Below, in pieces: positions 6,904 through 62,600 of a DNA stretch of 64,000 bases. The DNA is taken from the NCBI GenBank assembly GCA_020630875.1, contig JAHDIH010000009.1, forward strand, positions 62,001 to 126,000. Direction: 5' to 3'. Every line of letters begins with the position of its first letter. The first letter of the stretch is position 1. The translations under genes and the position numbers were made by a program. Source of the stretch: Deltaproteobacteria bacterium. Lineage in GTDB: Bacteria > Myxococcota_A > Polyangia > Haliangiales > Haliangiaceae. The notes below the pieces were generated by a model, which was given only the letters and a program-made list of their open reading frames with translations, made no database searches and was not told the DNA's origin.

Positions 6904-8252
6904 CGTTTTGGCTTTCGATTGGTTCGTTTTGCCCTGAAATACACTCGAATCGGAACGCCGCGGAACGCATAGTGTTTGCGCAGTTGATTGTGCACAAAGC
7001 GGCGATACGACATGGAAACTCCCTTTGGCTTGTTTGCCCACAAGACAAACGTTGGAGGACGCGTTGCTACTTGCGCGATGTACTGAATGGTTACTTGCTT
7101 ACCGCGGTGAATGGGCGGCGGCTTATGCTCGATGACGGCCTCAAAGAACTTGTTCAGCTCAGAAGTCGAAATGCGGCGCTTTGCTTGCTCGCCGACCTCG
7201 GCTACTTTCTTCATCAACTTCAAAAGTCCTTGAGACTCTAAAGCGGACGTGAGCACAAAAGGAATATAATCCAGGAAGTGGAGTTGGTCGTCGACAGACT
7301 GGCGAACCGCTGCCAAGCTTTCATCGTCCAAAAGGTCTGCTTTATTAAGTGCCACCACGACGCCTGCACCGCCATCTTTTATTAGCTGGGCAATCTTTGC
7401 GTCTTGGTCGGTGGCGCCAATCGTCGCATCGATCACGTGAACTACCACGTCGGCTCTTTCGATGTGACTTCGCGCCATGGCCACGGATATCTTTTCGATA
7501 TCTTCGTACACTTTGCTTTTTCTACGGATTCCAGCGGTATCGACAAGAAGGTACTCACTGCCCTCGAAGGAAAATGGGCTGTCTACAGGGTCGGTGGTGG
7601 TTCCAGGCATGTCATGGACCAACGCGCGGCTTTCGCCAAGCAAGCAGTTCATAATGGAAGACTTGCCAACATTTGGTTTCCCCACCAGCGCAAGTCTGAT
7701 GCGCTCATCGCCTTCTTCTCGAGGAACTGGCTCTGCAGGTCGCTCCCAGTCAGCGAATTGTTCGTCGACATAGTCCAGCAGCTCATCGATGCCTCGTCCG
7801 TGCTCTGCAGAAATGCCAAACACTGGGTCGATCCCAAGCTCAAAGAATTCATTTACCAAAGCATCTCTGTTTTTATGATCTACCTTGTTTGCGGCAACGA
7901 CAATGGTTTTGCCACTGGCTCTCAGCTCTTGCGCTAAATCGCGATCGACTGACGTGATACCACTTCTTGCATCTACGACAAACATCACCAAGTCTGCGTT
8001 TCTTGCAGCTTCCCTGGCATGCTTGTGAATGCTCGCACCGATGATTTCACTTGCTGCATCTGGATCGAGCCCACCGGTGTCTACCAATTCAAAAGCAACG
8101 TCAGAATAGTCGCAGCGGCCGTACCTGTTGTCTCGAGTCAGGCCAGCAGTGTCATGTACCAACGCCGGCCTTCCGCCTACTAAGCGGTTGAAGAGCGTTG
8201 ATTTGCCAACATTTGGTCGTCCGACAATCGCAACTACTGGTTCAACGGTCAT
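6900..8252 (-). CDS. der: Ribosome-assembly GTPase Der (EngA)
   Basis: A 450-residue tandem GTPase needed for maturation of the 50S subunit. The first G domain starts VAIVGRPNVGKSTLFNRL with DTGG and NKVD; the second, from about residue 187, has LVGKPNVGKSSIMN, DTAGIRRKSK and NKADLL. A C-terminal KH-like domain ends in RVYFRAKRTNRKPKR. All key nucleotide-binding residues are present. It lies downstream of era and begins inside era's last codons, so the two GTPases form one transcription unit. Confidence 0.97.
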   Translation of the reverse strand: MTVEPVVAIVGRPNVGKSTLFNRLVGGRPALVHDTAGLTRDNRYGRCDYSDVAFELVDTGGLDPDAASEIIGASIHKHAREAARNADLVMFVVDARSGITSVDRDLAQELRASGKTIVVAANKVDHKNRDALVNEFFELGIDPVFGISAEHGRGIDELLDYVDEQFADWERPAEPVPREEGDERIRLALVGKPNVGKSSIMNCLLGESRALVHDMPGTTTDPVDSPFSFEGSEYLLVDTAGIRRKSKVYEDIEKISVAMARSHIERADVVVHVIDATIGATDQDAKIAQLIKDGGAGVVVALNKADLLDDESLAAVRQSVDDQLHFLDYIPFVLTSALESQGLLKLMKKVAEVGEQAKRRISTSELNKFFEAVIEHKPPPIHRGKQVTIQYIAQVATRPPTFVLWANKPKGVSMSYRRFVHNQLRKHYAFRGVPIRVYFRAKRTNRKPKR

Positions 8253-9117
8253 ACCCTAACTCCTGCATTTTTCTCGTAGAACTTGACCACTTATCGACTA
8301 CACGAACGTGTAATTTCAGATGCACCGTACACCCAAACAGTTTTGAAATAGCCTCTCGCGCCAAGGTACCAATCTCTCGAATACGGCTTCCTTGCCTGCC
8401 AATCACAATCGCTTTCTGGGACTTACGCTCTACAAGAATCGACGCTGACAATTTTATGTCACCATTATCAAAGTCTTCCCATGCTTCAACCACCACCGCT
8501 GTTTCGTACGGGATTTCTCCGTTTAGCTGCAGAAAAGCCTGTTCGCGAATTAGCTCGGACGCCAAAAACGAATCGCCGCGATCCGTTGTAATATCTGGTG
8601 GAAACATGGGAGGACCGACTGGCAAGAGCCCTTCTATCGTAGACACCAACTGCTCTATTCCATCTCCAGTTTTAGCTGATATTGGAATGGCAGCTCCAAG
8701 TCCCCAAGAGTGAACTTCTTCCATTTTGGGGAGCAGCTGACTCTTCGACTTCAAAGCGTCAATCTTATTTAAGATAATAAGCATGTTGGGCAACGTGACT
8801 TCAGGCTTTTTCAGTGTTTTGGTCGCGTCGATTATTAACGCGACGACATCAGCATCAGCGGTCGCGGTTTCGACCTGTTGGCGCATGAACTTACGCAATG
8901 GACTGCCCCCGTCTTGCGCCCCTGGAGTATCCACAAATACCACCTGCATGCGATCTGGCCAATTGGCCACCCCTCTGATGTGGTTGCGGGTCGTTTGAGG
9001 CTTGGGAGAAACCGCACATAGGTGCTTCCCAATCAGCTGATTTAAAAGCGATGACTTTCCAGCGTTTGGGGCTCCGACTAACGCGCAGCTTCCTGCTCGA
9101 TGCACCGTGTCTTCCAC
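8242..9117 (-). CDS. era: GTPase Era
   Basis: A 291-residue GTPase that binds 16S rRNA and helps 30S maturation. G1 is GAPNAGKSS, switch II DTPGAQ, G4 NKID; the C-terminal type II KH domain has VIGRQGSRIREIG. The start codon is a GTG at 9117, giving MEDTVHRAGSCALVGAP; the choice is supported by a -10 like TAGGGT ending six bases upstream, as at many other first genes in this window. Der follows with an 11-base overlap. Confidence 0.95.
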   Translation of the reverse strand: MEDTVHRAGSCALVGAPNAGKSSLLNQLIGKHLCAVSPKPQTTRNHIRGVANWPDRMQVVFVDTPGAQDGGSPLRKFMRQQVETATADADVVALIIDATKTLKKPEVTLPNMLIILNKIDALKSKSQLLPKMEEVHSWGLGAAIPISAKTGDGIEQLVSTIEGLLPVGPPMFPPDITTDRGDSFLASELIREQAFLQLNGEIPYETAVVVEAWEDFDNGDIKLSASILVERKSQKAIVIGRQGSRIREIGTLAREAISKLFGCTVHLKLHVRVVDKWSSSTRKMQELGYDR

Positions 9118-9123
9118 GGCGCG

Positions 9124-9129
9124 ACCCTA
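9124..9129 (-). promoter_or_regulatory. Putative -10 element of the era-der operon (leaderless)
   Basis: On the minus strand TAGGGT lies exactly six bases before the GTG of era. Transcription would begin at or next to the start codon, with no room for a ribosome binding site. No convincing -35 is visible. Confidence 0.45.
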
Positions 9130-9195
9130 CCTCAAATGACATGGCGGCAACAGCAAAATGTAGGTCACAAAACTGGCCAGATTCAGTCCTGCTTC

Positions 9196-46929: not shown

Positions 46930-47981
46930 CGACCACCAACCTGGAACTCTACGGGCCTCGCGTAACTTACGAAGCCTGCGCACGCCCACACTTCTTTTGA
47001 CTTTGTGTCCATTGCAATAGCACCGCAAGTGGCGGACCCGTGAGGCGCTTGGTACGTTGCGGTAGAAGTGCAAGTAGATTGAGGAAAACCGTCGCGACTA
47101 CCAAGCAGTCTCCAAGCTTCAGCAAGATCTTGAGGCACCGCCTGTTGCAAACTCGCCTCCATACTAGCGTAACGACCATAGGTGGTACTGGTATTTGATA
47201 TATCTGTCTTCGCTGCGACTTCTTGCACCAATGCATGATTGGTATGGTGATAGTACCTGCGACCGTCAAGGGACTGCTCACACTCTACGGATCCAGAGAC
47301 TTCCCACATCGTGGCGGACTTGGAATCCGCTGCAACGTAATGATGCCCCGACGCGAAAGAAACATGATCCATGACGTCTTTCGCCTCATCGTGATTTTTT
47401 GCTGACAGAATCTTTCTAATGATCACAGACCACACCACACCGGGCTTAGCGTCGGTGCATCGAAGGTTGTTAATGCCCGCCGCTACCCCACAGTCATTCA
47501 TCCCAGCCATGCCGAGGCATCCTGTCAATGAAAAGATTGTCGCTGCCGGTCGCCCATCTTGCTCCGGAACCTGCAACATTAAAACATGAGGCATCGCAGA
47601 GATGTGCATGTCCCACGTTTGCGCCAAAATTCCGGACGGCGTCCACAGCATGGAGCAACCGCCGTCATCGAAGTCAATGGAGCTAGCACCTTCGTCTCTC
47701 AAGTCGGTGTAATGGTTCAACACCACCAATTCTGCAACTGAGAGACCTGCCCCCTCTGCAATGCCAACCAGCTCGTCTGAAAATGAGGGAGAACACCCCT
47801 TGGTAACTTCAAAATGAAGTAGCGCACGTCGCAGAAGAACGTCACGACTAGGAAAACCAAACTTATCAAGGCATAGCCCGATTCGAATATCTGTCAATGC
47901 GCGAACGTCGTCACGAAAAGCCTCGCCATGAGCTCGGCCTTGGGCTCGCGGCGTCCCTTTGGGTAAATCAAAAACTCTCAT
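46926..47981 (-). CDS. C45-family Ntn-hydrolase (acyl-CoA:6-aminopenicillanate acyltransferase-like)
   Basis: 351 residues. The autocatalytic nucleophile is Cys109 in DDGGCSMLW; GILAQTWDMHISAMPHVLML, SLTGCLGMAGMNDCGVAAGI and NHYTDLRD follow the family. After self-cleavage before Cys109 the enzyme hydrolyses or transfers amide-bound acyl groups. In this operon an N-deacylase role is the simplest reading. ATGA overlaps on both sides (47978-47981, 46926-46929). Confidence 0.85.
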   Translation of the reverse strand: MRVFDLPKGTPRAQGRAHGEAFRDDVRALTDIRIGLCLDKFGFPSRDVLLRRALLHFEVTKGCSPSFSDELVGIAEGAGLSVAELVVLNHYTDLRDEGASSIDFDDGGCSMLWTPSGILAQTWDMHISAMPHVLMLQVPEQDGRPAATIFSLTGCLGMAGMNDCGVAAGINNLRCTDAKPGVVWSVIIRKILSAKNHDEAKDVMDHVSFASGHHYVAADSKSATMWEVSGSVECEQSLDGRRYYHHTNHALVQEVAAKTDISNTSTTYGRYASMEASLQQAVPQDLAEAWRLLGSRDGFPQSTCTSTATYQAPHGSATCGAIAMDTKSKEVWACAGFVSYARPVEFQVGGR

Positions 47982-50900
47982 GCGGGACCTCCGATTTCTT
48001 TGGCGACTTCTATCAAGTGGCGCAACGGCGAAAGGTCATCCCATGAAGGAGTCACCAGAAGATTCCCGTTGGCCGCCGCATAGCAATGAACCCCTCTACT
48101 ACGAAGCGCTCTCTGAATGTTTCGAACTTGCCTGCCGCACTCTACCACTCGGTGCATGCCTAAGCCCTGCACTGAAAACCCCATCTCCTGCAGCTTATTC
48201 GCCGCCGCCGACAAGCCTTCAATAACCGCGGCTCTGTCCAACCGTCGAACCGCTCGCAACTGATGGTGGTGCCGGATTAACGTCAACTCATCGCCGTCCC
48301 AAGTAGAGACAAGTTTCATGGGAGCTTTAATGTACTTCTCGGAGGTGACGTGCACGTAGCCGGTCTGCCCTCCAGGCCACCAAACCAAAGTGTCTGGCTT
48401 GTGTTCGTACGTTTGAGACAGGAATGCGTCCACCCCACTTCGATATCCTGCGGAGGCAGTTTCTACTGCAATAAGCCCGACCTTGAATTCTTCACGAACG
48501 TCCTCTAGCGATTTGCAAAATGCCTTCGGCAACACCAAGCCGGTTCGCTCCCCCACCAGCTCATAAACCAGCGCTACAGTTGTCCCGGACGTTTGCCGAA
48601 GAAAATCTCGGAGAGCAGAAAGCGCGGCCTGTTCTCCCACCAATGCAGGGTGCGGAAGACGCGGCCAATCGAACGTTGGACCTACCTGGCGATGGAGATT
48701 TACATCGCTCAAACTTCGCGTCGATGCTGCCGTATGACCAAAGTAGTTCCCTGCAAACGTTGCGACGTTGACGGTTTTGGGATGACCGTAACGAAGCAAG
48801 CGAATCGCCTTGTCCACTGCCTCATCCCGCCCTGAAGAAAGATAGAGATGTGGATGAGTCGGAGTAAGCGCAGAGACCCATTCTAAGGCTCGAACGTGCG
48901 CGGGGGTGGCGTAGTTGAGCAGCGTCAATTTATTGACCGCAGGCCCAAAGATTGCCCCTTCGTCTCTTACCTTGGTCAACGTAGCCGGGGGGGTCTTCAG
49001 CGGTCTGGCCATTCCCTGAGAAAGCGACGTTTCACTGGCGGCCCCAGCTGTTTCCGGTACCAACTGTTGAATGGGTATTCTGTAGTAAATGGCTTGCCCT
49101 TCGGGATCCGCGTATTGACCACGCAACGTATCGACGATGTGAGCACCAAACACACGATTCAGGTGGGTCATGGCAGCAGTTTTTCCAATCCTGTTTCTGC
49201 CAGTCACGAACTTATAGCGTGGCGTACCATCCGCATTTTTCATGCCGCGAGCATGTTTGAGTTGCATTTGTTTAATAGCACGACCAATGCCCTGCTTTTG
49301 ATACCCCTCTGCTACGGTGACAGAAGCAGAATACAGCGTATTGTGCATACCAAGCATTGGATCTTGATCCGGCCCTTCGCTGTCCACGGGAACTTCAAGC
49401 GGAGCGCCAATACCAAAACCGACCATGTCGCCACTTTTGTTTTCCGCAACCACCACTACCGCATCCTCATGTTTTAGTACCTCCCGTATTTGTTCCGGTG
49501 GCGTACGGCGTGCGGGCTCGTACACGTCCAGTTCGATATCTAACATGGCTTGCAGCTTTGACTCCGCCTCGGCTGGTGGCACTTGAGTGAAAACGACATC
49601 ACTTGGAGTCGGGTTTCTGTTTCCTGACTCTATATTCTCCCAAGCGGGAGGCTTTTTACCCGGATGCGCCTCGAGCCACGCAAGTGACTGACGAATACTA
49701 ACAAAGAGATGATCAATTTCTCGGCGCCACATCGATTCGTTTAACCGATAGCGAATGGTTCGTTCGCCTGCTCCAAAGACCACGGTGCCTCTCCAAAAAC
49801 GTTGGGCAATGTACGAAAGCTGGTGCTCTTTGGTTGGCAAATCAAAAGCGAGTGCGTTGCCGCGACACCGGGGATTTTCCACAAGGGACGGAAATGCCGC
49901 AGCCAACTGAGTGAGCCGAGGTTCAAGAATCTCCTGCAACCTAGAAGAACTGTAACTTGCTTCCGAAGCCATGTCCGCATGAATGCGGCCACGCACCGCC
50001 GATGCCAGATGGACCGCTGTAGGCTCAGGATCTGAAAAACGGCTCATTACCACGCCGATCTGGGCGCGTTTTGCAAACGTCACAACCTCGGGACTAGCAG
50101 GACGCCCTCGCAAGTCCATCAGCCCAAAAGTCGTATGCCAAGCGAATGGTCCCCCCAATCCGAAACCAGTTTGTACTTCGTCGAAGATCAAGCGAACTTT
50201 GAGCTTTGCCGTGATAAGACGTAGCCCACGAAAGAAGCGATCGGTGGCGTAGCGATCGCCCCCCTCGGATTGCATCGGTTCAATAATCGACGCAAAGTAC
50301 GTGCCGGTTTGCAACTCATCGCAAACTTCAGCCAAAGCCAAAGCCTCCGCCGACAACAAAGGGTCAGATGATTCGCTTGCAAAGTCTCGCCGCAGTCCAC
50401 TGCCATCAGCCGCAGCACAAAGTGCGTAGAACCCAGATGGTGCGCGCGGTTGTTCTTCATTGGGTGTTGACCACACCGGAAACTGTACAAAGTTGGCGTC
50501 TACCCCTGCCATTGCGAACGGCTCCCGTTTGGCGGGATTATACGTCGCAGCAAGTGACGCCAGCGTCCGGCCGTGAAACGACCCCTCAAAAGCTAGCAGC
50601 TTGGTAGCATGCTCCGCCTCTCGGTTCGCGTAGCAAAGTGCAATCGCTTTTTCATTGGCTTCGGCGCCGCTGTTAGTAAATGTTACCTCAGGAAGACCTG
50701 GCACGTGACGTCTTAAGGTATCGGCGTAAAGTTCAAGCAAATCATGACCGCCTTGACTCGTGTCCCAGTCGGAAAGAAGCACGCCATCGAACTCACCTTC
50801 GAAATAGCCTCGAACGACAGAATCTTCAGAGAATCCACCGCAAAGAGTTGCGGTTTGGCTCATTCCATCCATTACGGACAGCGGCTCATCGTCGATCGAA

Positions 50901-52600
50901 ACCAGCCAAGGGCCGCCACTACGAATGTGATCGAAAACCGGAGGTTTCTTCTCTTTGGCCATGCGGTCTGCAGCGTACAGCCTTTGCAGCCAATATTCAG
51001 ACTGTGGAAGTCTGCAGTCTTCTGGCTTATGGATGCCAAAGGGCCGAGGGTCATCTACCAACGAACGTCCAGCTTCAGATCTTTCCTCTGCTAAATGCTG
51101 CGCCTCAAGCGTGTCGAGGTCCGGAGTTGGCAATGAGCTCTCCGCTATTTTTCCATGGCGAATCACCGGCCCGCAGGCGTTTTGCAAAACCGCCATCGGA
51201 ACAAACGAATGCCGCGACGCATACGCTCCGCCAGGACGATGGTTACCACTTTTTCCAACGCCACCAAATGGCAGACGCGGCGACGCTAAGTTGGTACTAC
51301 GATTTTGATTAAGGATCCCGCAATGCACTTTCTCATAGAGGGACTCAAACCTTTCGGTACTCGCGGTAAAAACGGAGTTAGCAAAGCCGAAGGGACTCGC
51401 ATTGAGTATTTCAGCAGCATGATCTTCGTCTCGAACGATTTGAATTGCGAGATCCGGGCCAAAACATTCCTCGTCGGTATACCCCGCAATGCCATCTTCG
51501 CCTTCAGGGATCAAATGCACTGACGCTCCGCGGAACGCACCGCCATCTGGCGACAGTCCCTCCAATAGCGGCACCGCACCTCCCTCTCTCCCTCGCTTCA
51601 AAAGTGAATCAAATTGTTTTGCAGCTGCAGCAGTCGCCAGGGGACCAGCAAAACTGCCTGGCTCACGTGGTGCTCCAAACACCAATCGGGACGCCACCTC
51701 TTTAAGTGCCTCTATAAATGCAGGTGCAATCGATTCTTGAACAAGTACCCTATCGGTTCCCGTGCAGCGCTGCCCGGTAGTAAGATAGCCACCGATGGCA
51801 CACTCATGCACCGCTTGACGCATAGAGGCATCGTCCAAGACCACGCATGTGTTCTTGCCTCCGAGCTCAAGAGCAGCAAGAAGTTGTGGCTTTTCAACGG
51901 CTGCAGCTTTAATCATTTTTCCTACCTTGTAGGAACCTGTGAAGTAAAGCCCTCGCACCGCAGGAGCGCTGACCAATGCTGCTCCCACGTCTCCCCCTCC
52001 AAAAACCATATTGAATACTCCCGGAGGGAGTGACGACGCTGCTGCGGCTTCAGCGTAAACCGTCGACGCTCCAAGGGCTATCTCACTCGGCTTCACCACC
52101 ACCGCATTGCCAGTCAAAAGCGAGGGCAAGACGTAGGCATTGATTAGGTGCAGCGGAAAGTTGAACGGTCCGATCACCCCAATCACTCCGAGGGGAGACA
52201 ATCGCAGAGACTCCCCGGATTGGGATTTAGAGCGTGCATGCTCCATTTCTGCCACCACTTGCGTTTTTACTAACGCAAACCGATTGATTACGGCATTGGC
52301 TTCGACTCTTGCTTCCGCCAAAACTTTCCCCATCTCATTGCAGATGAAGTCGGCCATCGCTTCTTTGCGTTGTTCAAGCTCGTGCCGGAAACTCTCTAGG
52401 TGATGCCACCTCGTCTCCATGGAAAGTTTTCGCCATTGCATCGCAGAAGTTTCAGCGGCAGTAACAGCCAGATTCACATGGGCGACATCGCCAGACTGTC
52501 GAAACACTGGCTGGAAACCGTTTGCAGGATCGTGTGAAGTCAATACAGTCTCACCTGTTGTAAACTCCCCGCCGATAAGACTCCCCAATCCTTTAATCAC
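47978..52600 (-). CDS. Four-domain fusion: aldehyde dehydrogenase - class III aminotransferase - GNAT - inactive aminotransferase
   Basis: About 1540 residues (1550 if started at ATG 52630, numbering used here). Residues ~15-490: AstD-like aldehyde dehydrogenase with PFNFP (Asn157), ELGGKN (Glu255) and GQRCTG (Cys289). ~540-1000: class III aminotransferase with TNSGAEANEKA, FDEVQTGFG (Asp817) and FAKRAQ (Lys854). ~1010-1195: GNAT acetyltransferase, GYQKQGIGRAIKQ. ~1215-1550: second class III fold (SSGRDEAVDKAIRLL, FAGNYFGHTAAST) whose PLP Asp and Lys positions are Val and Pro (LIAVETASAGYRS, LVWWPGGQTGY), so probably structural. GTG 52600 is chosen because TACAAT ends six bases before it and the homologous part begins IKGLGSLIGGEF. 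First gene of the operon. Confidence 0.85.
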   Translation of the reverse strand: MIKGLGSLIGGEFTTGETVLTSHDPANGFQPVFRQSGDVAHVNLAVTAAETSAMQWRKLSMETRWHHLESFRHELEQRKEAMADFICNEMGKVLAEARVEANAVINRFALVKTQVVAEMEHARSKSQSGESLRLSPLGVIGVIGPFNFPLHLINAYVLPSLLTGNAVVVKPSEIALGASTVYAEAAAASSLPPGVFNMVFGGGDVGAALVSAPAVRGLYFTGSYKVGKMIKAAAVEKPQLLAALELGGKNTCVVLDDASMRQAVHECAIGGYLTTGQRCTGTDRVLVQESIAPAFIEALKEVASRLVFGAPREPGSFAGPLATAAAAKQFDSLLKRGREGGAVPLLEGLSPDGGAFRGASVHLIPEGEDGIAGYTDEECFGPDLAIQIVRDEDHAAEILNASPFGFANSVFTASTERFESLYEKVHCGILNQNRSTNLASPRLPFGGVGKSGNHRPGGAYASRHSFVPMAVLQNACGPVIRHGKIAESSLPTPDLDTLEAQHLAEERSEAGRSLVDDPRPFGIHKPEDCRLPQSEYWLQRLYAADRMAKEKKPPVFDHIRSGGPWLVSIDDEPLSVMDGMSQTATLCGGFSEDSVVRGYFEGEFDGVLLSDWDTSQGGHDLLELYADTLRRHVPGLPEVTFTNSGAEANEKAIALCYANREAEHATKLLAFEGSFHGRTLASLAATYNPAKREPFAMAGVDANFVQFPVWSTPNEEQPRAPSGFYALCAAADGSGLRRDFASESSDPLLSAEALALAEVCDELQTGTYFASIIEPMQSEGGDRYATDRFFRGLRLITAKLKVRLIFDEVQTGFGLGGPFAWHTTFGLMDLRGRPASPEVVTFAKRAQIGVVMSRFSDPEPTAVHLASAVRGRIHADMASEASYSSSRLQEILEPRLTQLAAAFPSLVENPRCRGNALAFDLPTKEHQLSYIAQRFWRGTVVFGAGERTIRYRLNESMWRREIDHLFVSIRQSLAWLEAHPGKKPPAWENIESGNRNPTPSDVVFTQVPPAEAESKLQAMLDIELDVYEPARRTPPEQIREVLKHEDAVVVVAENKSGDMVGFGIGAPLEVPVDSEGPDQDPMLGMHNTLYSASVTVAEGYQKQGIGRAIKQMQLKHARGMKNADGTPRYKFVTGRNRIGKTAAMTHLNRVFGAHIVDTLRGQYADPEGQAIYYRIPIQQLVPETAGAASETSLSQGMARPLKTPPATLTKVRDEGAIFGPAVNKLTLLNYATPAHVRALEWVSALTPTHPHLYLSSGRDEAVDKAIRLLRYGHPKTVNVATFAGNYFGHTAASTRSLSDVNLHRQVGPTFDWPRLPHPALVGEQAALSALRDFLRQTSGTTVALVYELVGERTGLVLPKAFCKSLEDVREEFKVGLIAVETASAGYRSGVDAFLSQTYEHKPDTLVWWPGGQTGYVHVTSEKYIKAPMKLVSTWDGDELTLIRHHHQLRAVRRLDRAAVIEGLSAAANKLQEMGFSVQGLGMHRVVECGRQVRNIQRALRSRGVHCYAAANGNLLVTPSWDDLSPLRHLIEVAKEIGGPA

Positions 52601-52606
52601 ACCTGT

Positions 52607-52612
52607 ATTGTA
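52607..52612 (-). promoter_or_regulatory. Putative -10 element of the fusion-protein operon (leaderless)
   Basis: TACAAT on the minus strand ends six bases before the GTG at 52600, inside the frame that could start at ATG 52630. It argues for the shorter protein. Confidence 0.42.
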
Positions 52613-52698
52613 ATAGGTAGACTCGAGCATGCGAGTCCGTCAGGCACGAGAATGCAATTCACCTAAGAAAGCATCCGATCGCTTGCATTTCGCTAACT

Positions 52699-54096: not shown

Positions 54097-55254
54097 CTAA
54101 TCCAGCCTAATAAACAGGCATTGCAAGTAGTTACTTTCTGGAAAACCAAAGCGCCTTGGATGATCGCTTCCTGCACCACTTCTCGCAATAATTCTGGCGA
54201 CTCTGCCTGTTTTTCGTATCCCTCGATTCACAGCGCCTTCAAACTGCGGCCAGTCGATATGTGACGAACAGGATGCACTTACCAACAATCCACCTGGCGC
54301 GACCGCTCTACAAGCCAAGGTATTAATCCTGGCGTAAGTCGACAAGGCTGCGGACTTTGCACTTTCTTTGGGCGCAAAGTTAGGCGGGTCGCAAATCACG
54401 ATATCAAATTGGTGTTTGAGTTTTTTAAGAAACACTTCTACGTCTTCGGCGAAAAAACCATGCGCGCCAGGATCAATTCCATTGAGAATGAAGTTACCTC
54501 GAGCGGCGTCGATAACCGGCTTGGAAATGTCGACGCTAGTCACCTTTGATGCGCCAGCAAGGGCCGCATGAACCGAAAAACCTCCGGTATAAGAGTACAG
54601 ATTTAGTACGGTCTGCCCTGGAGCGTGAGTGCCCACGAGCAAACGGTTGGGTCTTTGGTCAAGAAAGAATCCTGTCTTTTGCCCTCTTCGCAAGTCTACG
54701 TTGAACTTCGCATTCTTCTCAGCAATTACCACCTCCTCCCGACTGCCCCTAACCAGTTGTCGCTTACGCCCACGAACCACTTGCCACACCGTGCTAACCG
54801 TCAGACCAGATTCTATAACTTGCACTACGTCTTCAGCAAAAGGCTGCCAGAACGTTTGCGCTTCCTCTCCATCGTAGTAAAGGCTCAATACGTCATCGTA
54901 CCGGTCAACGATAAGCCCCGGCATTCCATCGGATTCACCGTAAATGATTCGCCAACCATTGGTTTGATGAAGAGACGCGTCGGACTGGCGCACTTGCATT
55001 GCGCTAAGTGCCTTTTGCCGCACCCAACTGCGCCAATCGTTCACCGAAGCAACCGACAAAACCCTAACCGCAATGGGAGACGTTGCATTGTACCACCCCC
55101 ACGCTACACTGCCCTGATCGTCAACAAGCTCTACTATCTCGGCGGACTCGGCAGTTGACTCAACTAGAGCGTCTCGAAATACCCAAGGGTGACCGTTAGT
55201 TATCGAGCGTCTTAAGTTTTTCTTTAGCTTTAGTTTCTTCATCATCTTTTTCAA
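54097..55254 (-). CDS. PUA-domain class I SAM-dependent rRNA methyltransferase (RlmI-like)
   Basis: 385 residues. N-terminal PUA part: RRSITNGHPWVFRDALV, WGWYNATSPIAVRVLS. The methyltransferase has VLNLYSYTGGFSVHAALAGA (SAM loop), VTSVDISKPVIDAARGNFIL, DIVICDPPNFAPKE (catalytic NPPF/DPPxF-type) and LLVSASCSSHIDW. RlmI methylates C5 of a 23S rRNA cytosine; the specific target here is not assured. Its first 59 bases overlap the TolB-like gene end. Confidence 0.88.
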   Translation of the reverse strand: MKKMMKKLKLKKNLRRSITNGHPWVFRDALVESTAESAEIVELVDDQGSVAWGWYNATSPIAVRVLSVASVNDWRSWVRQKALSAMQVRQSDASLHQTNGWRIIYGESDGMPGLIVDRYDDVLSLYYDGEEAQTFWQPFAEDVVQVIESGLTVSTVWQVVRGRKRQLVRGSREEVVIAEKNAKFNVDLRRGQKTGFFLDQRPNRLLVGTHAPGQTVLNLYSYTGGFSVHAALAGASKVTSVDISKPVIDAARGNFILNGIDPGAHGFFAEDVEVFLKKLKHQFDIVICDPPNFAPKESAKSAALSTYARINTLACRAVAPGGLLVSASCSSHIDWPQFEGAVNRGIRKTGRVARIIARSGAGSDHPRRFGFPESNYLQCLFIRLD

Positions 55255-56146
55255 TTTTGTCCGCCATGCCGGTCAAAATGGCGTGTCGCAACCCTACTTC
55301 ATACAGAGGTAGTTGACTTACGTCCTCGAAAGAAACTCGAGGATTAATCGCGGACCAACGTTGCTGGGTCACCATCTGCATGTCTTGAAAAAGTCGCCAT
55401 TTAGGGTCTTCCGCCTGTAAGTCGATTACAGTGATTGCGGAGTGAATCGGGTCGCCGGTCTCCTCCGAGCGGTATGTGGCAGTTGCAAAGAGCAGCTTTC
55501 CTTTGTTGCCCCAAACAGGAATGGTCTGATCCGCCAAAGGTTCTGCAATCGCAAACAGAGTAGTTCCACTTTTGTCTGCTACTACAATATCAACATTGGT
55601 CTTGTTGCCATCTTTCACCAATGCAGAATATGCCAGTCGGTCCCCTTGCGGAGACCACTTTGGATAAGTCCCTTGAATGGCGGTGGCGACTTCATTGATC
55701 ACGATCCTTGGTCGTTTGTCATCAATGGTAACGTATGCAAAATCTCCGCTACGGCTGAAGCTCGGCATCAAGGTGACGTTACCGGAGTTAATGGTTTTGC
55801 TCTTGCCAGCCGTAGTCAGTTCCATCACATCGTAGCTTTGCCCCCTCTCAACGGAGAACACGATCTTATCTTCAGCCCAGCTGATGTCTCTGAGTCCTTT
55901 GGTTGCCGGAAAAATATTTTTTACTTCTCCCCCACGTGGATCCACGAGCCAAATGCCCCATTTTCCACTTTGGTCTACTACGCCACGATTCGAAGTAAAC
56001 GCAAGCACTTTACCGTCAGGAGACCAGATTGGTTCGCGATCGATTTGTCCTACCTTGTCAGGCTTCGTGAGGTTCCCAAGACGATTTCCCCGCGCACCAA
56101 GCCACACCAAACCAGTGCCATTGACTGTGGACTCCGCGGTAACCAC
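55196..56146 (-). CDS. TolB-like beta-propeller protein (PD40 repeats)
   Basis: 316 residues from a GTG. Propeller blades with the PD40 pattern: EPIWSPDGKVLAFTSNRG, SFSRSGDFAYVTIDD, YPKWSPQGDRLAYSA, IPVWGNKGKLLFATA, and a charged tail (IEKDDEETKAKEKLKTLDN). No signal peptide of its own. The frame stays open upstream through QVARIP, and lies -1 to the adjacent anchor gene that ends 15 bases earlier, so the two may once have been, or may still be, read as one membrane-tethered propeller. Confidence 0.75.
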   Translation of the reverse strand: MVTAESTVNGTGLVWLGARGNRLGNLTKPDKVGQIDREPIWSPDGKVLAFTSNRGVVDQSGKWGIWLVDPRGGEVKNIFPATKGLRDISWAEDKIVFSVERGQSYDVMELTTAGKSKTINSGNVTLMPSFSRSGDFAYVTIDDKRPRIVINEVATAIQGTYPKWSPQGDRLAYSALVKDGNKTNVDIVVADKSGTTLFAIAEPLADQTIPVWGNKGKLLFATATYRSEETGDPIHSAITVIDLQAEDPKWRLFQDMQMVTQQRWSAINPRVSFEDVSQLPLYEVGLRHAILTGMADKIEKDDEETKAKEKLKTLDN

Positions 56147-56160
56147 CGCGGGAATGCGAG

Positions 56161-56394
56161 CTACTTGGTTGCCGCTGGTGGTGCCTCTACTGGCACCTTT
56201 GCAGCCGGCTTGGAAGTAGACTTGGCCGGCGGCTGAAATAATAAGTAGATAGCCACAGCCAGAACGAACAAAATGGCTCCGGATACGATCCCAGCGGTCT
56301 TTGCTTTTTTTCCAGCAGAAATAGAGTGTTCTTCGAACACCACCATTGCAGCTTCTTCGTTTGGCGGGAGAGATGTAAAATCTTGTATATTCAT
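56161..56394 (-). CDS. Small single-span membrane protein with Pro/Lys-rich tail
   Basis: 77 residues: a cytoplasmic start (MNIQDFTSLPPNEEAAMVVF), one helix (TAGIVSGAILFVLAVAIYLL, ~34-53) and a periplasmic Ala/Pro/Lys tail (KPAAKVPVEAPPAATK). A typical N-terminal tether for an envelope domain; see the neighbouring propeller. Confidence 0.6.
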   Translation of the reverse strand: MNIQDFTSLPPNEEAAMVVFEEHSISAGKKAKTAGIVSGAILFVLAVAIYLLFQPPAKSTSKPAAKVPVEAPPAATK

Positions 56395-56499
56395 TGGTTC
56401 TAGCCTGTCTGATACTCAGGGAGCGTAAGAGATTTATGCAGATCTTTCAAGGATACTAGCCGCCAGCATGTGTTGCCATACTCATGTTTTCATCTGATC

Positions 56500-57846
56500 A
56501 TGACGTTAATGTGGAGGATTGCCTTCATACTCCTCTTGCTCGCCCCTACGGTTTCCTCTGAGACCAGAGTGGTCGTAAGAGGTGCAGAGCTCTCTAAGTC
56601 GCCGCTAGGCCCACTTCTTACCGTGGCAATCGCGCCTCTATCCTTGGAGGGAAAACTACTGAGCACTGAGGGCTTGCAGGTTAATATCGGCTCAAGTCCA
56701 CTTCCTAGTCCGCCGATCCTCGTGACGCGACAAGACTCGACCAGAGATCTCGCCCTGATTGTTGTGCTACAAACGGCTGGCCAAGAAAAACTCATCCAGA
56801 CGCTGCAAGATTCGGGGCTGCCATGGCCCAAGGGGGCGCGGCTGTCACTTATCGAGTACAGCGATGCCGTGGCCGGAGGGCACCAATTCTCAGACGCTGA
56901 CGTTTTTTTAGATGCGCTAAGCGAGGCAGAACCAAGCGAGCTAACCGATGCGCCGCAATTACTCGCCGCAGTTCACCGCGGGGTCAGTGCAGCTTATCGT
57001 TACCAAAAGAAGCACCCAACGACTGACGTAAGCGTACTGGTTTTGTCCGACGGACTTACTGAAGACCAGCAACCAGCAGATTTTTTTGAGGCGGCACGAC
57101 GAGCGAAAAAACGTGGAATCCGAATTCATACTATTGGTTTTAGTGAAAGCGATTTTCGCACCCCACTGCTTGGGTTGGGCACCTTGTCAAAATTGTCCGG
57201 GGGGACTTTCAGGTGGTTACGTTCCTCCCACGGGCTCGCCCAGAACCTTAAGAACCTGTTTGAAGAGGAGGAGCGCCACTACCTACTGCGAATCTTTCTT
57301 GGCAACAAAAATATCAAGGGCAAGCCGCTGTACGTTACGCTGCAAGAGCAAAAGTCTGATCGGTTCGTCGTAAAAGAATACTCTTGCTCCGGTACAATCT
57401 GTTCCGACACTTGCATCGCGAACCGTTGCAGCCCCCCACAAAACTCCGACCAATTCCCGTGGCGGATTATACTAATCGCTATCGCCGCAATAGTGGGACT
57501 CGTAATTACCGTCTACCTCCTAAAACGAATGCCGAGAAGAAACAAAAGCACAGGCCCTTCGAGAGGGTCTCTAATCCTTCTAACGGGCGACTCCATCACG
57601 ACCAGCGCACGACATGGAGCAACCATTGGCACAGGGAAAAAGAGTGACCTGAGAGTACCGCCTTTTCCCGGAGTAGCGGAAACGCATATCAGACTGGAAG
57701 CCCAAAAAGGTGGAGCACTAGCCGCTGTCGATGTATCTGGCCTTGGGTTCAAAGTAAACGGCATCTCTGTTTCAAGCAAAGTACTAAATCACGGAGTGAC
57801 AATTCAAATAGGTAACGTCTCGATACGTTACTGGGAGGGAGCATAA
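56500..57846 (+). CDS. VWA-like protein with membrane helix and C-terminal FHA-like domain
   Basis: About 448 residues from ATG 56500 (signal peptide MTLMWRIAFILLLLAPTVSS); a GTG at 56470 is less likely. Periplasmic VWA-like domain ~75-265 (LALIVVLQTAGQEKLIQTL, VSVLVLSDGLTEDQQPADF, IHTIGFSESDF); the MIDAS DxSxS is replaced by LQTAG, so metal binding may be lost. Four Cys follow (EYSCSGTICSDTCIANRC). One helix (IILIAIAAIVGLVITVYLL) leads to a cytoplasmic FHA-like domain (ATIGTGKKSDLRVPPFP, AETHIRLE, FKVNGISV, HGVTIQIG). It could link an outside signal to phosphothreonine binding inside. TAATG overlap with the next gene. Confidence 0.76.
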   Translation: MTLMWRIAFILLLLAPTVSSETRVVVRGAELSKSPLGPLLTVAIAPLSLEGKLLSTEGLQVNIGSSPLPSPPILVTRQDSTRDLALIVVLQTAGQEKLIQTLQDSGLPWPKGARLSLIEYSDAVAGGHQFSDADVFLDALSEAEPSELTDAPQLLAAVHRGVSAAYRYQKKHPTTDVSVLVLSDGLTEDQQPADFFEAARRAKKRGIRIHTIGFSESDFRTPLLGLGTLSKLSGGTFRWLRSSHGLAQNLKNLFEEEERHYLLRIFLGNKNIKGKPLYVTLQEQKSDRFVVKEYSCSGTICSDTCIANRCSPPQNSDQFPWRIILIAIAAIVGLVITVYLLKRMPRRNKSTGPSRGSLILLTGDSITTSARHGATIGTGKKSDLRVPPFPGVAETHIRLEAQKGGALAAVDVSGLGFKVNGISVSSKVLNHGVTIQIGNVSIRYWEGA

Positions 57847-59750
57847 TGGGGAAAATATGGATTGCTGGCAAAGGATTTGAAACCGACGCCAACATCATTC
57901 GCTGGGATGAGGGACCAGGTTACGACGCAGCCAAAGAAGTCTGCATCAATTCTTCTCAACCATGTCAGAATGGTATCCCGTTCGAGATGGAAGGCACCAG
58001 GCGAAGGCGCTACGGCCTACGACCTTCCCTTTCCCGCTACGGCAAGCATCCCCCATTGGGCGCAGCACAAGCTGCGATAAAACAATTCATCTTTCACCAC
58101 GATGGTTGCGCAAGCGCCAAAATGTGTTTCAACGTACTTCATAACGAACGAGGCTATTCCGCTCACTTTTTGATCGACAACGATGGAACCATCTACCAGA
58201 CACTTGATCTTTCAATGATGGCCTACCACGCAGCAAAGTTTAACTCTAACTCGATTGGCGTTGAAATCTGCAATCGCGGCAACGCGAAAAAAGAACCAAA
58301 CTACTACTCAAAGAAACGTCAACAACGCGACGTAACTACCTGCAGAATACACGATCACACATACCTCGCCTTCAAATTCACAGAAGTGCAAGAGCGCGCA
58401 TTGCGTGAGCTTGCCAAAGGCTTGTCGCACGCACTACCAAACTTACCACTGGAATACCCACAAGAGTCTCCTGGACGCCAGTCCTGGGGGGTGCTCCCCA
58501 ACGTTCGAAAGTACTCGGGGTACCTTGGCCATTATCATACGACCACAAGAAAGTGGGACCCTGGCCCATTCGATTTCAAAAAGTTTTGCCAAGACATTCG
58601 CGGTTCCATGTGCTTCCCGGTAGCTGGCAAGGCCAAGAAGCCACCAGTGATTCCGCAAGACAATGGCAAGCTGAACGAGCAATCGGACAAACTGTACAGA
58701 AAAAGTGAAGAGAGAGATGGCTCAGGTTACTTTCCCGTCGGGCGATTCGGAAAGTCTCGTTTGTGGCACGGTGGTATCCATATGCCAGGCACGGAAAAGG
58801 ACAAGGTTTATGCGGTTTTTCCTGGGCGAATTGTCGCCGCAAGATTCAAGCCTAACTCTCCTGCGGGAAGCCAAAACTTTGTACTAGTTAGACACGACCT
58901 CTCGTTTGGCGAAAAAACAGAACGTTTTTATTCCCTTTATTACCACCTGTACAATGAGGTGGGAGCAAAGTCTGAAACACCGGAATGGGTAGATAAAGCG
59001 AAGACGAAACTTTCTAGAGGAAATGTCGTCCTTCTTGACATCCCCATTCAAGGTGGTGAGTCTCTAGGGCGCGTCGGTAAAGCCGGCCCTGACTTCAAGG
59101 AAGAATTGCACTTTGAAATCTTTTCTCCCGACGAGGTCTTCGGAAAAGCCGGAGAGTCCACATGGAAGGTAATTGATGGTACTGCTGGCGGTCGTTTTTG
59201 CGACAACAGCGAAGTACTGACAGAGATAGACGAATCAGGAGATGGCAAACTGTCCCGCAAAGAACTGCTCGACTTCTTTAGAGGCAGTCGCGGCGACAAA
59301 AACGCCGCCAGGTTCTACGTAACACTGCACGCCTCAGAATGGTGCGGCCGACCTGATTGGGACTCCAGCCTAAAACAATCCCCGTCGTTTCAAGAGCTAT
59401 CGGAAACGGCCTACGAGGATCTTCTCGAAACCCAAATCAAGCCGTCACTTTGGTGGACGGACTCGCTGGCAGCACATGCGAAACTTCCAAGAGACGGAGT
59501 AGTATTCCATTACCACCCTCTGTCCTTTTTGAAGTACGTAACGGAAAAAGTCATTGAGGCAAACGCCTTGGCCGACAATGGAGTCGGAGCATTCTCCGTA
59601 CAGTCTGCGGAGGAACCACCACCAGGGGTAACGGACGACTTCGGGGACGTTTCAGGAGAATCGTTTTTGGATGCGACAGAACTTGCGCCCGTAGATCTCG
59701 GACACCACTTAACACTGGAGGACCTCGTCAATGGCTACCCAGAAGAGTAA
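57846..59750 (+). CDS. Dual peptidoglycan hydrolase: amidase_2 + M23-like + EF-hand, no signal peptide
   Basis: 634 residues, beginning MGKIWIAGKG with no export signal. Amidase_2 (N-acetylmuramoyl-L-alanine amidase) domain ~65-250: FIFHHDGC (zinc His84/85), SIGVEICNRG (Glu140) and HTTTRKWDPGPFDF (Asp238). Residues ~295-435 resemble an M23 endopeptidase: WHGGIHM has His308 and His312 where the family has HxxxD, and ELHFEIF keeps the second His (422) of HxH. An EF-hand loop DESGDGKLSRKE lies at 462-473. The ~170-residue C-terminus is unknown. Delivery by a dedicated secretion machine or phage-tail-like device is an inference from the missing signal. Confidence 0.8.
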   Translation: MGKIWIAGKGFETDANIIRWDEGPGYDAAKEVCINSSQPCQNGIPFEMEGTRRRRYGLRPSLSRYGKHPPLGAAQAAIKQFIFHHDGCASAKMCFNVLHNERGYSAHFLIDNDGTIYQTLDLSMMAYHAAKFNSNSIGVEICNRGNAKKEPNYYSKKRQQRDVTTCRIHDHTYLAFKFTEVQERALRELAKGLSHALPNLPLEYPQESPGRQSWGVLPNVRKYSGYLGHYHTTTRKWDPGPFDFKKFCQDIRGSMCFPVAGKAKKPPVIPQDNGKLNEQSDKLYRKSEERDGSGYFPVGRFGKSRLWHGGIHMPGTEKDKVYAVFPGRIVAARFKPNSPAGSQNFVLVRHDLSFGEKTERFYSLYYHLYNEVGAKSETPEWVDKAKTKLSRGNVVLLDIPIQGGESLGRVGKAGPDFKEELHFEIFSPDEVFGKAGESTWKVIDGTAGGRFCDNSEVLTEIDESGDGKLSRKELLDFFRGSRGDKNAARFYVTLHASEWCGRPDWDSSLKQSPSFQELSETAYEDLLETQIKPSLWWTDSLAAHAKLPRDGVVFHYHPLSFLKYVTEKVIEANALADNGVGAFSVQSAEEPPPGVTDDFGDVSGESFLDATELAPVDLGHHLTLEDLVNGYPEE

Positions 59751-59865
59751 GAAATCACTGTCTCGTCGTTATATTCTGTGCTTTCCACCGCTAGCCTGGC
59801 TCGCACTAAAACTGCGCAAGAAACCCGCCGAGAAGCGAAAAACAACATGGTTTGGCCATTACTAA
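59731..59865 (+). CDS. Small 44-residue basic membrane-associated protein (unannotated-size ORF)
   Basis: Starts MATQKSKKSLSRRYILCFPP, then LAWLALKLRKKP and a basic end. A strong ribosome binding site GGAGG (59716-59720) stands ten bases before the ATG, and the gene overlaps the hydrolase 3' end by 20 bases. Basic ends around a short hydrophobic core suggest a membrane peptide, perhaps a helper or regulator for the hydrolase; this is inferred from position only. Confidence 0.5.
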   Translation: MATQKSKKSLSRRYILCFPPLAWLALKLRKKPAEKRKTTWFGHY

Positions 59866-59898
59866 CTGCGGCGGCTCGCGGCAAACCAAGAACTTGTG

Positions 59899-59904
59899 TA
59901 AATT
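59899..59904 (+). promoter_or_regulatory. Putative -10 element of the beta-barrel gene (leaderless)
   Basis: TAAATT ends six bases before the ATG at 59911, so the beta-barrel gene may be transcribed on its own as well as with the cluster. Confidence 0.42.
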
Positions 59905-59910
59905 TGGGTT

Positions 59911-60846
59911 ATGAGACTACTTACGGCGACTCTTATTCTAGCGGCATCCAGCTATGCTTACGCACAAGATGAAATCGAACTCGACGACGACGACATTGAG
60001 TTAGGCGACGACACACCGGAAGAAGCGCCAGCCTACGATGGCCCTCCACCATCAGGCTCCGAAGAAGACCCTTCTGCACCAAAGCTTGCCGACGACAAGA
60101 AGCGCGAGAAAGAAGAAGCAGTAATTAAGGCTAAAACGGTAATCGAGTCGTATCCTACGAAATACATCGACCGCCCTCTTACGTTGCCGTCACAAATGGT
60201 TGAAGTAGAGTTTCATACTCCACTGACGTTCAATCCTTGGTCGGTCGGAGCCAATCTAAAGCTGGACTATGGGATTACTGAAAAAGTAGAAGTCGGACTT
60301 CTTTACGGAATGGGTACGTACCATAAAGATTCAAAATTTGAAGCCGGCAAAGCCGTTGGCATTCAAACAAGGGTGGGAATCACCGAAGACATCTCCGTAG
60401 AAGCGACAATCCCGATGCTTTTTGACCCGTTTGCAATGAGTCTCACTATTGGTGCGCCAATGCGCTTTCGGCTCAATGACAAACTGGCGCTGTACCTCGG
60501 CCACGACTTACTTTCGTTCAAGATTTCAAAGTTCATGCCTTTGGTTTTCGACCCCGTCGGTAACGCAGGACTTGCTACGCAGGCTGACATTGGAACCGCG
60601 TTACCGTCATCTGCGCTTACCTTAAATCTGGGAGCAGGCTATCAACTTACAAATTCTTCTGCGTTACGTGGTCAGATTTCCGTGTACGCCCCAGAGTTCG
60701 ACATTGATGCGTCGCTCTATGGCCTGTCGCTAGACTACCTCAGCACAGGTCAGAGGTTTGACTGGTATCTAGGGCTCCGAAGTCTAGACCTTGAAAATAT
60801 CGATTCCAACTTAACGTTACTTGTTGGGTTACACTGGAGGATTTAA
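59911..60846 (+). CDS. Outer membrane beta-barrel-like protein with acidic N-terminal tail
   Basis: 311 residues. Signal peptide MRLLTATLILAASSYAYAQ, then an acidic stretch (DEIELDDDDIELGDDTPEE) and a Pro/Lys linker. From ~85, alternating amphipathic strands run to the end (VEVGLLYGMGTYH, GIQTRVGITEDISVEATIP, LTLNLGAGYQL, LTLLVGLHWRI), ending in aromatic-basic-hydrophobic as outer membrane proteins often do. About twelve strands. The acidic tail could bind calcium. No specific porin family recognised. Confidence 0.72.
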   Translation: MRLLTATLILAASSYAYAQDEIELDDDDIELGDDTPEEAPAYDGPPPSGSEEDPSAPKLADDKKREKEEAVIKAKTVIESYPTKYIDRPLTLPSQMVEVEFHTPLTFNPWSVGANLKLDYGITEKVEVGLLYGMGTYHKDSKFEAGKAVGIQTRVGITEDISVEATIPMLFDPFAMSLTIGAPMRFRLNDKLALYLGHDLLSFKISKFMPLVFDPVGNAGLATQADIGTALPSSALTLNLGAGYQLTNSSALRGQISVYAPEFDIDASLYGLSLDYLSTGQRFDWYLGLRSLDLENIDSNLTLLVGLHWRI

Positions 60847-60967: not shown

Positions 60968-61480
60968 ATGGACAAGCTACACTCTGCGCTCGCACGTCAT
61001 TCTTTCGAATCTTCATTCTGGCTGGGGGGATACCCTTCAGTTAGGGAATACACCCGTTCGCTTGCACACGTTTTGGCAAACGAAGACACACGGCTGGAAC
61101 TTAGAAAACTGTTGTTTCGCAACAGCTTGCTCGGAATCTATCGCTACACACCGCCTGAGTTTTTTATCACAAAGAAGATCACAGAAGATGGTTTAACGTT
61201 TGCCTGCGGCATTGTTGGCTACGAATTTTTTGTTGGCGAGCACCCCTTCGGGGAGACGAGCAAAGACCAAAAAATTGCATTACTCACCAGCCCATCCCTG
61301 CCAACCTCTGTTGGAATTTCCTCTGCTGAGCGCGTATTGAAGTCTGCGCTCCACAGAGATCCTCTGCGGCGACCTCGCCTGCAACGGCTCATGGAGCGCT
61401 GGGTACAATCATTCGCTCGTCAAATAACGGCGGCAGAGCAAACAGGAACTAACATCACCAGAATACCTACTAACTTTTAG
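60968..61480 (+). CDS. Protein-kinase C-lobe-like fragment (pseudokinase-like), sigma-54 dependent
   Basis: 170 residues. The middle and end follow the C-lobe of Hanks kinases: YTPPEFFITKK (the Pro-Glu after the activation loop), FACGIVGYEFFVGEHPFG (like 'slGvvlyElltGrpPF') and LKSALHRDPLRRPRLQRL (like 'al..dP..RP'). No Gly loop, catalytic Lys, HRD or DFG is present, so it cannot be an active kinase. It may be a substrate mimic or adaptor, or a decayed kinase, though its own strong promoter argues for use. The 3' end overlaps the convergent permease gene by 11 bases. Confidence 0.6.
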   Translation: MDKLHSALARHSFESSFWLGGYPSVREYTRSLAHVLANEDTRLELRKLLFRNSLLGIYRYTPPEFFITKKITEDGLTFACGIVGYEFFVGEHPFGETSKDQKIALLTSPSLPTSVGISSAERVLKSALHRDPLRRPRLQRLMERWVQSFARQITAAEQTGTNITRIPTNF

Positions 61481-62600
61481 CGCACGTGAAACCAAGTGAA
61501 ACCACTTTCTCTTCCACTGCTTTAGGGTCGGCATCACTGGAAACGTGCAGCGTGCCGGCCTTAAGGTCGACTTTCACCTCCGCCGCCAAACTCGCAAGCG
61601 ATATCTCTATACGCCTAACGCACCCCCCGCACGTCATTCCGCCAACAGAAAACGCTATCGCGCGGTCAACCTTAGTATTCCGTTTTGGCAAGGGCGCTAG
61701 TAACAACATGCAAAGAGATGCGGCAACCACGCCGCCAAACACTGAGGCATGGTCCATCGCGACTAAGCGGTTTACTTCAAGCTTAGGGTTGATGACGTAG
61801 GCCAAAACCAGAGAACAAGCAGAGAGTGTCACTACAAAGGCTACAGCCGCTCTTTTGCCAAGCTCCTTGCCCATCACGCCAAGTGTCGAAAGGTTCGTCG
61901 CAGGGCCAGCAACGAGAAACACCAAAGCGGAGGCAGACGAAAACCCCGCACTCACCATAGTCGCGGCAATGGGAACGGATGCCGTCGCGCACACGTAGAC
62001 AGGAACAGAGACCAGTAGTGCTACGCCGGGATTGAGAAACTCGCCGGGAAGCCAATAGTGCTTTGTTAGTGTCAGTGTTACTCCTGAGATCAAAGCGCCC
62101 CCTAAAACCCACCAACGAATACTCCTTAGAATTTGAAAACCATGAAGTAGTATCGCGGTTCGCCCTTCGGTTTCGATGGTTTGCGACTTTTGAGTAACAG
62201 CATACGGGGCTACCGCAGCTACCACGAGCCCGGTGACCAGCCCTACTACTACGGCAATTCCCGCCTTTAGCCACGCGAACTTCCAACCAAGAAGTCCGGC
62301 AGTAACGAAAAATGAATCTACGCCTGTTTGCGGTGTGACTACAAGAAAGGTGGCCACGGCAGCAGCTGAAGCTCCTTGTCTCTTTAAGCCGACCGCCACT
62401 GGAATCACCCCACACGAACAAAGTGGCAACGGCAGTCCCACGAGTAACGCCCAGAAGACTCCTGTTGCCCCTTTCATCTTAGCGGTAATGTTGGCTGGGA
62501 GCACTGCCATGATTACTCCTGCCAGCAGTGCTCCGATGAAAAGCCACGGGGCCATCTCCACCATTACAAGCCAACTGGCATAAAGCATCTCCACGAGCAC
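61470..62600 (-). CDS. Cu/Zn-type permease (SO_0444/ArsP_1 family) with C-terminal HMA domain
   Basis: 376 residues, about eight membrane helices. Permease marks: GLPLPLCSCGVIPVAVGLKR and FLVVTPQTGVDSFF in the first half, mirrored by VPVYVCATASVPIAATMVSA and FLVAGPATNLSTL in the second. A C-terminal heavy-metal-associated domain has GGMTCGGCVRRIE. Family members export Cu, Zn or organo-arsenicals; the HMA domain points to a soft metal. GTG start after TGgTAATGT. Confidence 0.85.
   Translation of the reverse strand: MLVEMLYASWLVMVEMAPWLFIGALLAGVIMAVLPANITAKMKGATGVFWALLVGLPLPLCSCGVIPVAVGLKRQGASAAAVATFLVVTPQTGVDSFFVTAGLLGWKFAWLKAGIAVVVGLVTGLVVAAVAPYAVTQKSQTIETEGRTAILLHGFQILRSIRWWVLGGALISGVTLTLTKHYWLPGEFLNPGVALLVSVPVYVCATASVPIAATMVSAGFSSASALVFLVAGPATNLSTLGVMGKELGKRAAVAFVVTLSACSLVLAYVINPKLEVNRLVAMDHASVFGGVVAASLCMLLLAPLPKRNTKVDRAIAFSVGGMTCGGCVRRIEISLASLAAEVKVDLKAGTLHVSSDADPKAVEEKVVSLGFTCAKS

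Follow-up and report, generated by a model that had tools for sequence, protein, structure and literature searches.

How contractile injectors that are cytoplasmic or anchored deal with the wall of the cell that produces them is an open question, especially outside the T6SS. For TagX, a T6SS peptidoglycan hydrolase of Acinetobacter, the proposed role is to open a passage for the machine through the wall of the producing cell (PMC5061870). The CIS of Streptomyces is cytoplasmic and has been linked to cell death (PMC10066040), and a membrane protein, CisA, is needed for CIS function and firing in S. coelicolor (PMC12237407). Among the eCIS-associated toxins (such as EAT10), some have neighbouring immunity genes (PMC8213781).

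Here we describe a module that encodes a hydrolase (HYD), a VWA-TM-FHA protein and a microprotein family, WIGH, in a phylum that is known to include predators. What is chiefly new is the link of this module to contractile machines: across related bacteria it is found almost only in genomes with phage-tail-like injectors, and it is therefore probably a wall-handling accessory of such a machine. The near one-to-one genomic link provides a named candidate for wall handling. Like TagX, HYD is a wall hydrolase encoded in contractile-system loci. TagX, however, is a VanY-like L,D-endopeptidase with a TM anchor, whereas HYD combines an AmpD-type amidase with an altered M23 domain and has neither a signal nor a TM segment. 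Membership of HYD in the TagX family was considered and rejected, as its domains are Amidase_2 and M23-like and not VanY-type; the analogy is functional only. A second parallel is CisA, a membrane protein that assists a CIS whose sheath is of the type found here. The cisA gene, however, is part of the cis cluster itself and comes from a Gram-positive, whereas our module is unlinked, belongs to a Gram-negative and includes a wall enzyme. EAT10 is likewise a case of a peptidoglycan hydrolase associated with eCIS. Toxins of this type are encoded within eCIS operons or close to them. The HYD gene of the window is not; moreover, HYD accompanies its CIS type almost universally and also occurs with T6SS.

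Organization of the module and its envelope proteins

The window, the whole stretch of 64,000 nucleotides that was analyzed, corresponds to C14:62001-126000 of a 4.07 Mb genome in 17 contigs (G000) and has a GC content of 52%. Named relatives place it in a Kofleriaceae-like family of Myxococcota. A preliminary description had recognized an envelope cluster of four ORFs, the positions of which were borne out when the ORFs of the window were read again. The genes for the VWA-TM-FHA protein (positions 56500-57846, plus strand) and HYD (57846-59750, plus strand) share one base, and the TAATG coupling described for them is visible in the sequence. The 44-aa WIGH ORF (59731-59865) overlaps the 3' end of HYD by 20 nt and is followed by the gene for an outer-membrane beta-barrel protein (59911-60846, plus strand). 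This VWA-HYD-small ORF-barrel order recurs across the window's family, and on comparative grounds the cluster is no chance grouping but a module that has been conserved among Kofleriaceae-like Myxococcota. In every f1 locus with enough contig on that side, the VWA gene lies directly 5' of HYD. The barrel protein has a signal peptide (judged by eye, as were all signal peptides in this study), an acidic N-terminus and a weak Pfam match to OMP_b-brl (0.016); it is a conserved neighbour in family f1 only, and its gene is on the opposite strand in some genomes. Two conserved neighbours are divergent, on the minus strand: a 77-aa single-TM protein (56161-56394), which adjoins the module in most f1 loci, and a TolB/PD40 propeller-like protein (55196-56146; Pfam PD40, 1.9e-12), also seen among the neighbours of relatives' loci. 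A gene for a DUF1287 lipoprotein lies immediately 5' of the module in most of the window's family and is absent at the window locus.

The VWA-TM-FHA protein (448 aa) was read from Pfam matches, an AF2 model and its relatives as a signal peptide, a periplasmic VWA domain, a cysteine-rich stalk, one TM segment and a cytoplasmic FHA domain. Its start is the ATG at 56500, with an alternative GTG upstream at 56470. The VWA domain was matched by Pfam VWA (E = 2.5e-6), and the AF2 model (pLDDT 85) contained a VWA fold, a TM helix at residues 321-341 and a C-terminal FHA fold that matched GarA-type, phosphothreonine-binding FHA structures. The FHA domain (positions 57565-57837, plus strand) is divergent in the window copy, where the GSTNGTFVNG of relatives reads GLGFKVNG, without the usual NGT motif, and falls below Pfam detection. 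The relatives carry a textbook FHA domain (PF00498, 1.5e-16). The FHA-like cytoplasmic end proposed in the preliminary description appears in the predicted fold and in the Pfam matches of the relatives, and the window protein is a candidate FHA-domain sensor.

The hydrolase HYD and the WIGH microprotein

HYD is a protein of 634 aa in which Pfam and AF2 delineate a conserved N-terminal strand motif, an amidase domain, an M23-like domain, an EF-hand and a C-terminal domain. Its AF2 model (pLDDT 85) matched AmpDh2/AmpD and LytM/EnvC structures. The Amidase_2 domain (positions 58071-58568, plus strand; Pfam E = 2.3e-19) was aligned in 28 homologues, all of which retain H84, H229, D238, E140 and K236; with the fold, the H/H/D zinc ligands and the catalytic Glu/Lys in place, HYD is predicted to be an N-acetylmuramoyl-L-alanine amidase of the AmpD/PGRP type. 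The M23/LytM-like domain (58761-59126, plus strand) was recognized from fold matches and a Pfam M23 score just under the cut-off (E = 1.1e-5). H308-x3-H312, H367 and H422 are invariant in the 28 homologues, and in 28 of 28 rows HxxxH replaces HxxxD and Q/ExH replaces HxH, so that the HxxxD and HxH motifs of an active M23/LytM endopeptidase are missing from every row. The domain may still bind metal. The claim that HYD has two different peptidoglycan-cutting folds was correct as to the folds; because the M23 site is altered, two folds need not mean two cutting activities. A single EF-hand, also claimed, is present as the canonical loop DESGDGKLSRKE (59229-59264, plus strand) and conserved in relatives, with D462, D466 and E473 kept in at least 27 of the 28 rows.

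HYD is conserved over its full length in about 30 relatives, and this strong conservation appears unlike that of a swappable cargo. As had been proposed, it lacks an N-terminal export signal, both in the window copy and in a clade of signal-less proteins from 41 genomes. Of the 28 aligned homologues, 27 start without a signal peptide and the most distant one starts signal-peptide-like. Common to the signal-less members is the motif LTLEDLxxGY at the C-terminus (LTLEDLVNGY in the window, positions 59709-59738, plus strand), which is absent from signal-bearing members; the Sec-signal clade ends differently. A wider homologue scan, with signals judged by eye, found Myxococcales relatives with the same domains plus a Sec-type signal, and Planctomycetota/Verrucomicrobiota relatives (L098-L126) that are single-domain amidases. 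The latter keep the N-terminal motif, and most of them have signals of the lipoprotein type. In the tree, the signal-less Myxococcota HYD clade split from the signal-bearing groups with support of 96/94. Family f7 contributed 11 genomes in which HYD has a Sec signal; VipB (T6SS) is present in every one of them and the PF17482 sheath in none. These homologues have neither WIGH nor VWA, and the WIGH profile gave no match in this family at E 1e-5. The presence of Sec-signal HYD in T6SS genomes suggests that the enzyme acts in the periplasm of the cell that makes it, a role also proposed for TagX (PMC5061870). The preliminary description had named homologues with Sec signals and a non-conserved small ORF as findings that would count against it; the former exist, whereas the small ORF proved strongly conserved. 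In one genome (G005), the locus L028 carries a tandem HYD duplicate (4935-9145) with the WIGH gene between the copies and no VWA gene directly 5' of the second.

WIGH, a conserved microprotein family added by this analysis, was defined by a 27-member alignment and an HMM. The window copy (44 aa; positions 59731-59865, plus strand) has a twin-arginine sequence (SRRYI), a weak hydrophobic stretch and a C-terminal WFGHY. The 27 copies range from 44 to 83 aa, and the RR pair and the C-terminal W-(I/F)-G-H ("WIGH") are invariant in all of them. The ORFs of relatives read (S/T)RRx(F/L/I), continue with a weak Ala/Leu-rich stretch and finish with WIGH or WFGH at the extreme C-terminus; these ORFs of 48-83 aa overlap HYD or come directly after it. 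When the HMM was built without the window copy, the window WIGH ranked first of 1885 window ORFs (E = 6e-4). In most pairs dN was lower than dS. By these comparisons, the 44-aa ORF is a genuine gene. At L067 the WIGH gene is on the opposite strand and still adjoins HYD, whereas G044 and G052 each have a WFGHC copy elsewhere in the genome, unlinked to HYD. No match was obtained at E 1e-5 in several genomes with signal-less HYD (e.g. G036, G074, G125-G130 and G133), and a relaxed-pattern search of HYD loci without a WIGH-like gene gave no convincing candidate.

The TAT_signal_seq model (TIGR01409) matched 22 of the 27 WIGH members at a permissive threshold (best 4.8e-5), and Pfam TAT_signal (PF10518), likewise with permissive E-values, matched 12 of 27. 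The HMM search gave no TAT model match for the window copy. With its twin arginines and weak hydrophobic region the family has the hallmarks of a Tat signal peptide, and WIGH resembles such a peptide with a short tail and not a holin. A holin identity, suggested in the preliminary description, was rejected on the basis of the weak stretch of 13-17 residues, the twin-arginine motif, the WIGH tail, the TAT scores of the family and the lack of a PHROG match; the window copy matched no phage lysis family. The same features bear on the proposal that the cluster is a lysis module, with HYD as an endolysin through which a dying cell sets its CIS particles free and WIGH as a holin-like peptide. The best PHROG matches of HYD are indeed endolysins and amidases, and release of eCIS through producer lysis has been discussed (PMC8213781). 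Such a role nevertheless seems improbable given a Tat-like WIGH with a short, weak hydrophobic stretch, a window copy outside the lysis families, and the occurrence of the module with T6SS, for which lysis is unneeded.

One known example of Tat hitchhiking is MelC1/MelC2. In another, PaoABC, a partner that is folded and has no signal can be exported by means of the signal on a second protein (PMC4273604). WIGH differs in being only 44-83 aa long and mostly signal plus a short tail, and in that no TatC was found in the window's genome. It also recalls TIGR02811 (formate dehydrogenase region TAT target), a tiny Tat-signal protein with a conserved C-terminus that is encoded beside an enzyme. The TIGR02811 HMM weakly matched 7 of the 27 WIGH members; the enzyme context differs from the HYD context of WIGH, and so, presumably, does the C-terminal motif, going by the family description. 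TatC was found in 53 of the 56 genomes searched and not in the window's genome, which is 97% complete. Since the window WIGH also has no TAT match, Tat export could be a general feature only if tatC has been missed by the assembly, and a strict Tat escort model is weakened in this genome. An orphan tatA is present there (L130; G000:C5:92751-92900), possibly as a result of Tat loss or an assembly gap. We consider it doubtful that WIGH, with its Tat signal and tail, constitutes an export or licensing signal supplied in trans to HYD, giving eCIS and T6SS on-demand access to the wall; equally doubtful is the exchange of HYD's own signal for a WIGH partner that this idea includes.

Association with contractile machines

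The distribution of the module was compared with that of the PF17482 eCIS-type sheath using genome lists that cover 318 genomes of the class, of varying completeness. The sheath was present in 38 of the 41 genomes with signal-less HYD versus 77 of 318 class-wide (Fisher P = 4e-24, uncorrected for kinship). The sheath-less exceptions were G017, which is 75% complete, and G043 and G074, both of which have T6SS. In G004 a sheath is present and HYD and WIGH are both absent. Shared ancestry of a few lineages could generate such a pattern around an ordinary envelope or predation enzyme. The genomes cluster in the phylogeny, in the window's genome the CIS lies on a different contig from HYD, and the DUF1287 (NlpC/P60-like) lipoprotein in the cluster of relatives suggests general wall work. 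HYD and the sheath are, however, jointly absent from genus g2 of the window's family and, within its order, from families f2 and f4; they are jointly present in families f3, f6, f21 and f22. With HYD also in or near T6SS loci of other lineages, we regard mere kinship as an improbable explanation.

The window's own genome carries a CIS locus (G000:C7:413129-433500) with genes for Pvc16_N, two gp19-type tube proteins, sheath, gp25 and Baseplate_J. Its second sheath protein had its best match in 8BKY/8BL4 (1.5e-78 for 8BKY), of which 8BKY was deposited for the S. coelicolor CIS (PMC10066040), and its tube protein was best matched by another eCIS. With these genes present and the sheath nearest to that of Streptomyces, the system is classed by homology as an eCIS of the Streptomyces kind. 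T6SS was rejected as the machine here, as G000 has no VipB and VipB occurs in only 2 of the family's genomes. Because the CIS is unlinked to the module, the tie between them in the window's genome is statistical and not physical. Nine stretches that span CIS loci were searched for the VWA, HYD, WIGH and barrel proteins and gave nothing beyond similarity to the FHA domain and one weak kinase-like match. At the 3' end of the own-genome locus lies an ORF with FHA-like sequence (L143:1130-1798), which might connect the CIS to the VWA-FHA protein through signalling.

Physical linkage was seen in other lineages. In family f13 the module is part of the T6SS operon: L074 has the order VWA, lipoprotein, HYD, WIGH, hcp, tssE, tssF, tssG, clpV, tssB, tssC, and L073 the order VWA, lipoprotein, HYD, tssE, tssF, tssG, clpV. 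Outside this family, the HYD contig of L080 also bears T6SS genes plus a VWA gene. Contractile loci near the module, sought as a check on the preliminary description, were thus found beside HYD in these lineages and were absent from the retrieved flanks of the cluster in the window's genome, where the CIS is on another contig. The description had favored effector delivery or lysis over normal wall growth; the tie to contractile machines held, through the sheath in 38 of 41 genomes and the T6SS loci elsewhere, and the reading of the small peptide as a holin did not. The L074 locus also encodes a 601-aa fused VipA-VipB-like protein (5380-7182) 5' of the T6SS operon, although normal tssB and tssC genes are present in that operon.

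A candidate role at the producer's own wall

The explanation we prefer, and hold tentatively, is that the VWA-TM-FHA protein, HYD and WIGH form an accessory of CIS or T6SS that cuts the producer's own wall, with WIGH as a membrane or export partner. The machine served would be the Streptomyces-type eCIS in the window's genome and T6SS in some relatives. HYD would be made in the cytoplasm without a signal of its own and then applied to the producer's peptidoglycan, with cutting timed or placed to suit the passage, docking or release of the machine. Its dedicated membrane or periplasmic partner would be WIGH, carried or anchored by the Tat-type signal, and its invariant C-terminal tail probably contacts HYD, either escorting the folded enzyme out or silencing it until needed. 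The VWA-TM-FHA protein would tie the module to the envelope and to phospho-signalling. The step performed by WIGH could be that of an escort, an anchor, an inhibitor or an immunity peptide.

A signal-less hydrolase is equally expected of injected cargo. HYD could be carried by the CIS or T6SS into other cells or, as has been suggested for the CIS of Streptomyces, act on the producer's own envelope at death, with WIGH as an immunity or inhibitor peptide that is exposed at the membrane and blocks the conserved zinc site of HYD with its His-containing C-terminal tail. The missing signal of HYD and the tight HYD-WIGH gene pair favor this alternative: the WIGH gene adjoins or overlaps HYD and its product is apparently exportable, which is a usual layout of a peptidoglycan effector and its immunity protein, and the C-terminal motif specific to the CIS-associated signal-less clade could be a loading tag. 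A peptidoglycan hydrolase toxin, EAT10, is among the known eCIS-associated toxins (PMC8213781), envelope-targeting effectors have been proposed for the Streptomyces CIS (PMC10066040), and an immunity role would tolerate the loss of TatC if WIGH inserts by another route. The own-wall and cargo readings account for nearly all of the observations. We nevertheless consider cargo rather unlikely. The Sec-signal relatives in T6SS genomes, the near one-to-one presence of HYD with the machine, with no turnover, and its strong conservation favor action on the producer's own wall. In addition, the WIGH tail is invariant, whereas immunity peptides usually diverge, and WIGH is unlinked to HYD in some genomes.

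Other ORFs of the window were observed beside the module. Downstream, a 170-aa ORF (60968-61480, plus strand) matches Pkinase (3.5e-5) at profile positions 154-259 of 263. This part corresponds to the C-lobe of a Ser/Thr kinase alone, and with the N-lobe missing the ORF is possibly a kinase remnant. Reading by eye identified a predicted permease with a C-terminal heavy-metal-associated-like domain (61470-62600, minus strand) and an apparent fusion of 1550 aa with aldehyde dehydrogenase, aminotransferase-like and acetyltransferase-like parts (47978-52630, minus strand).
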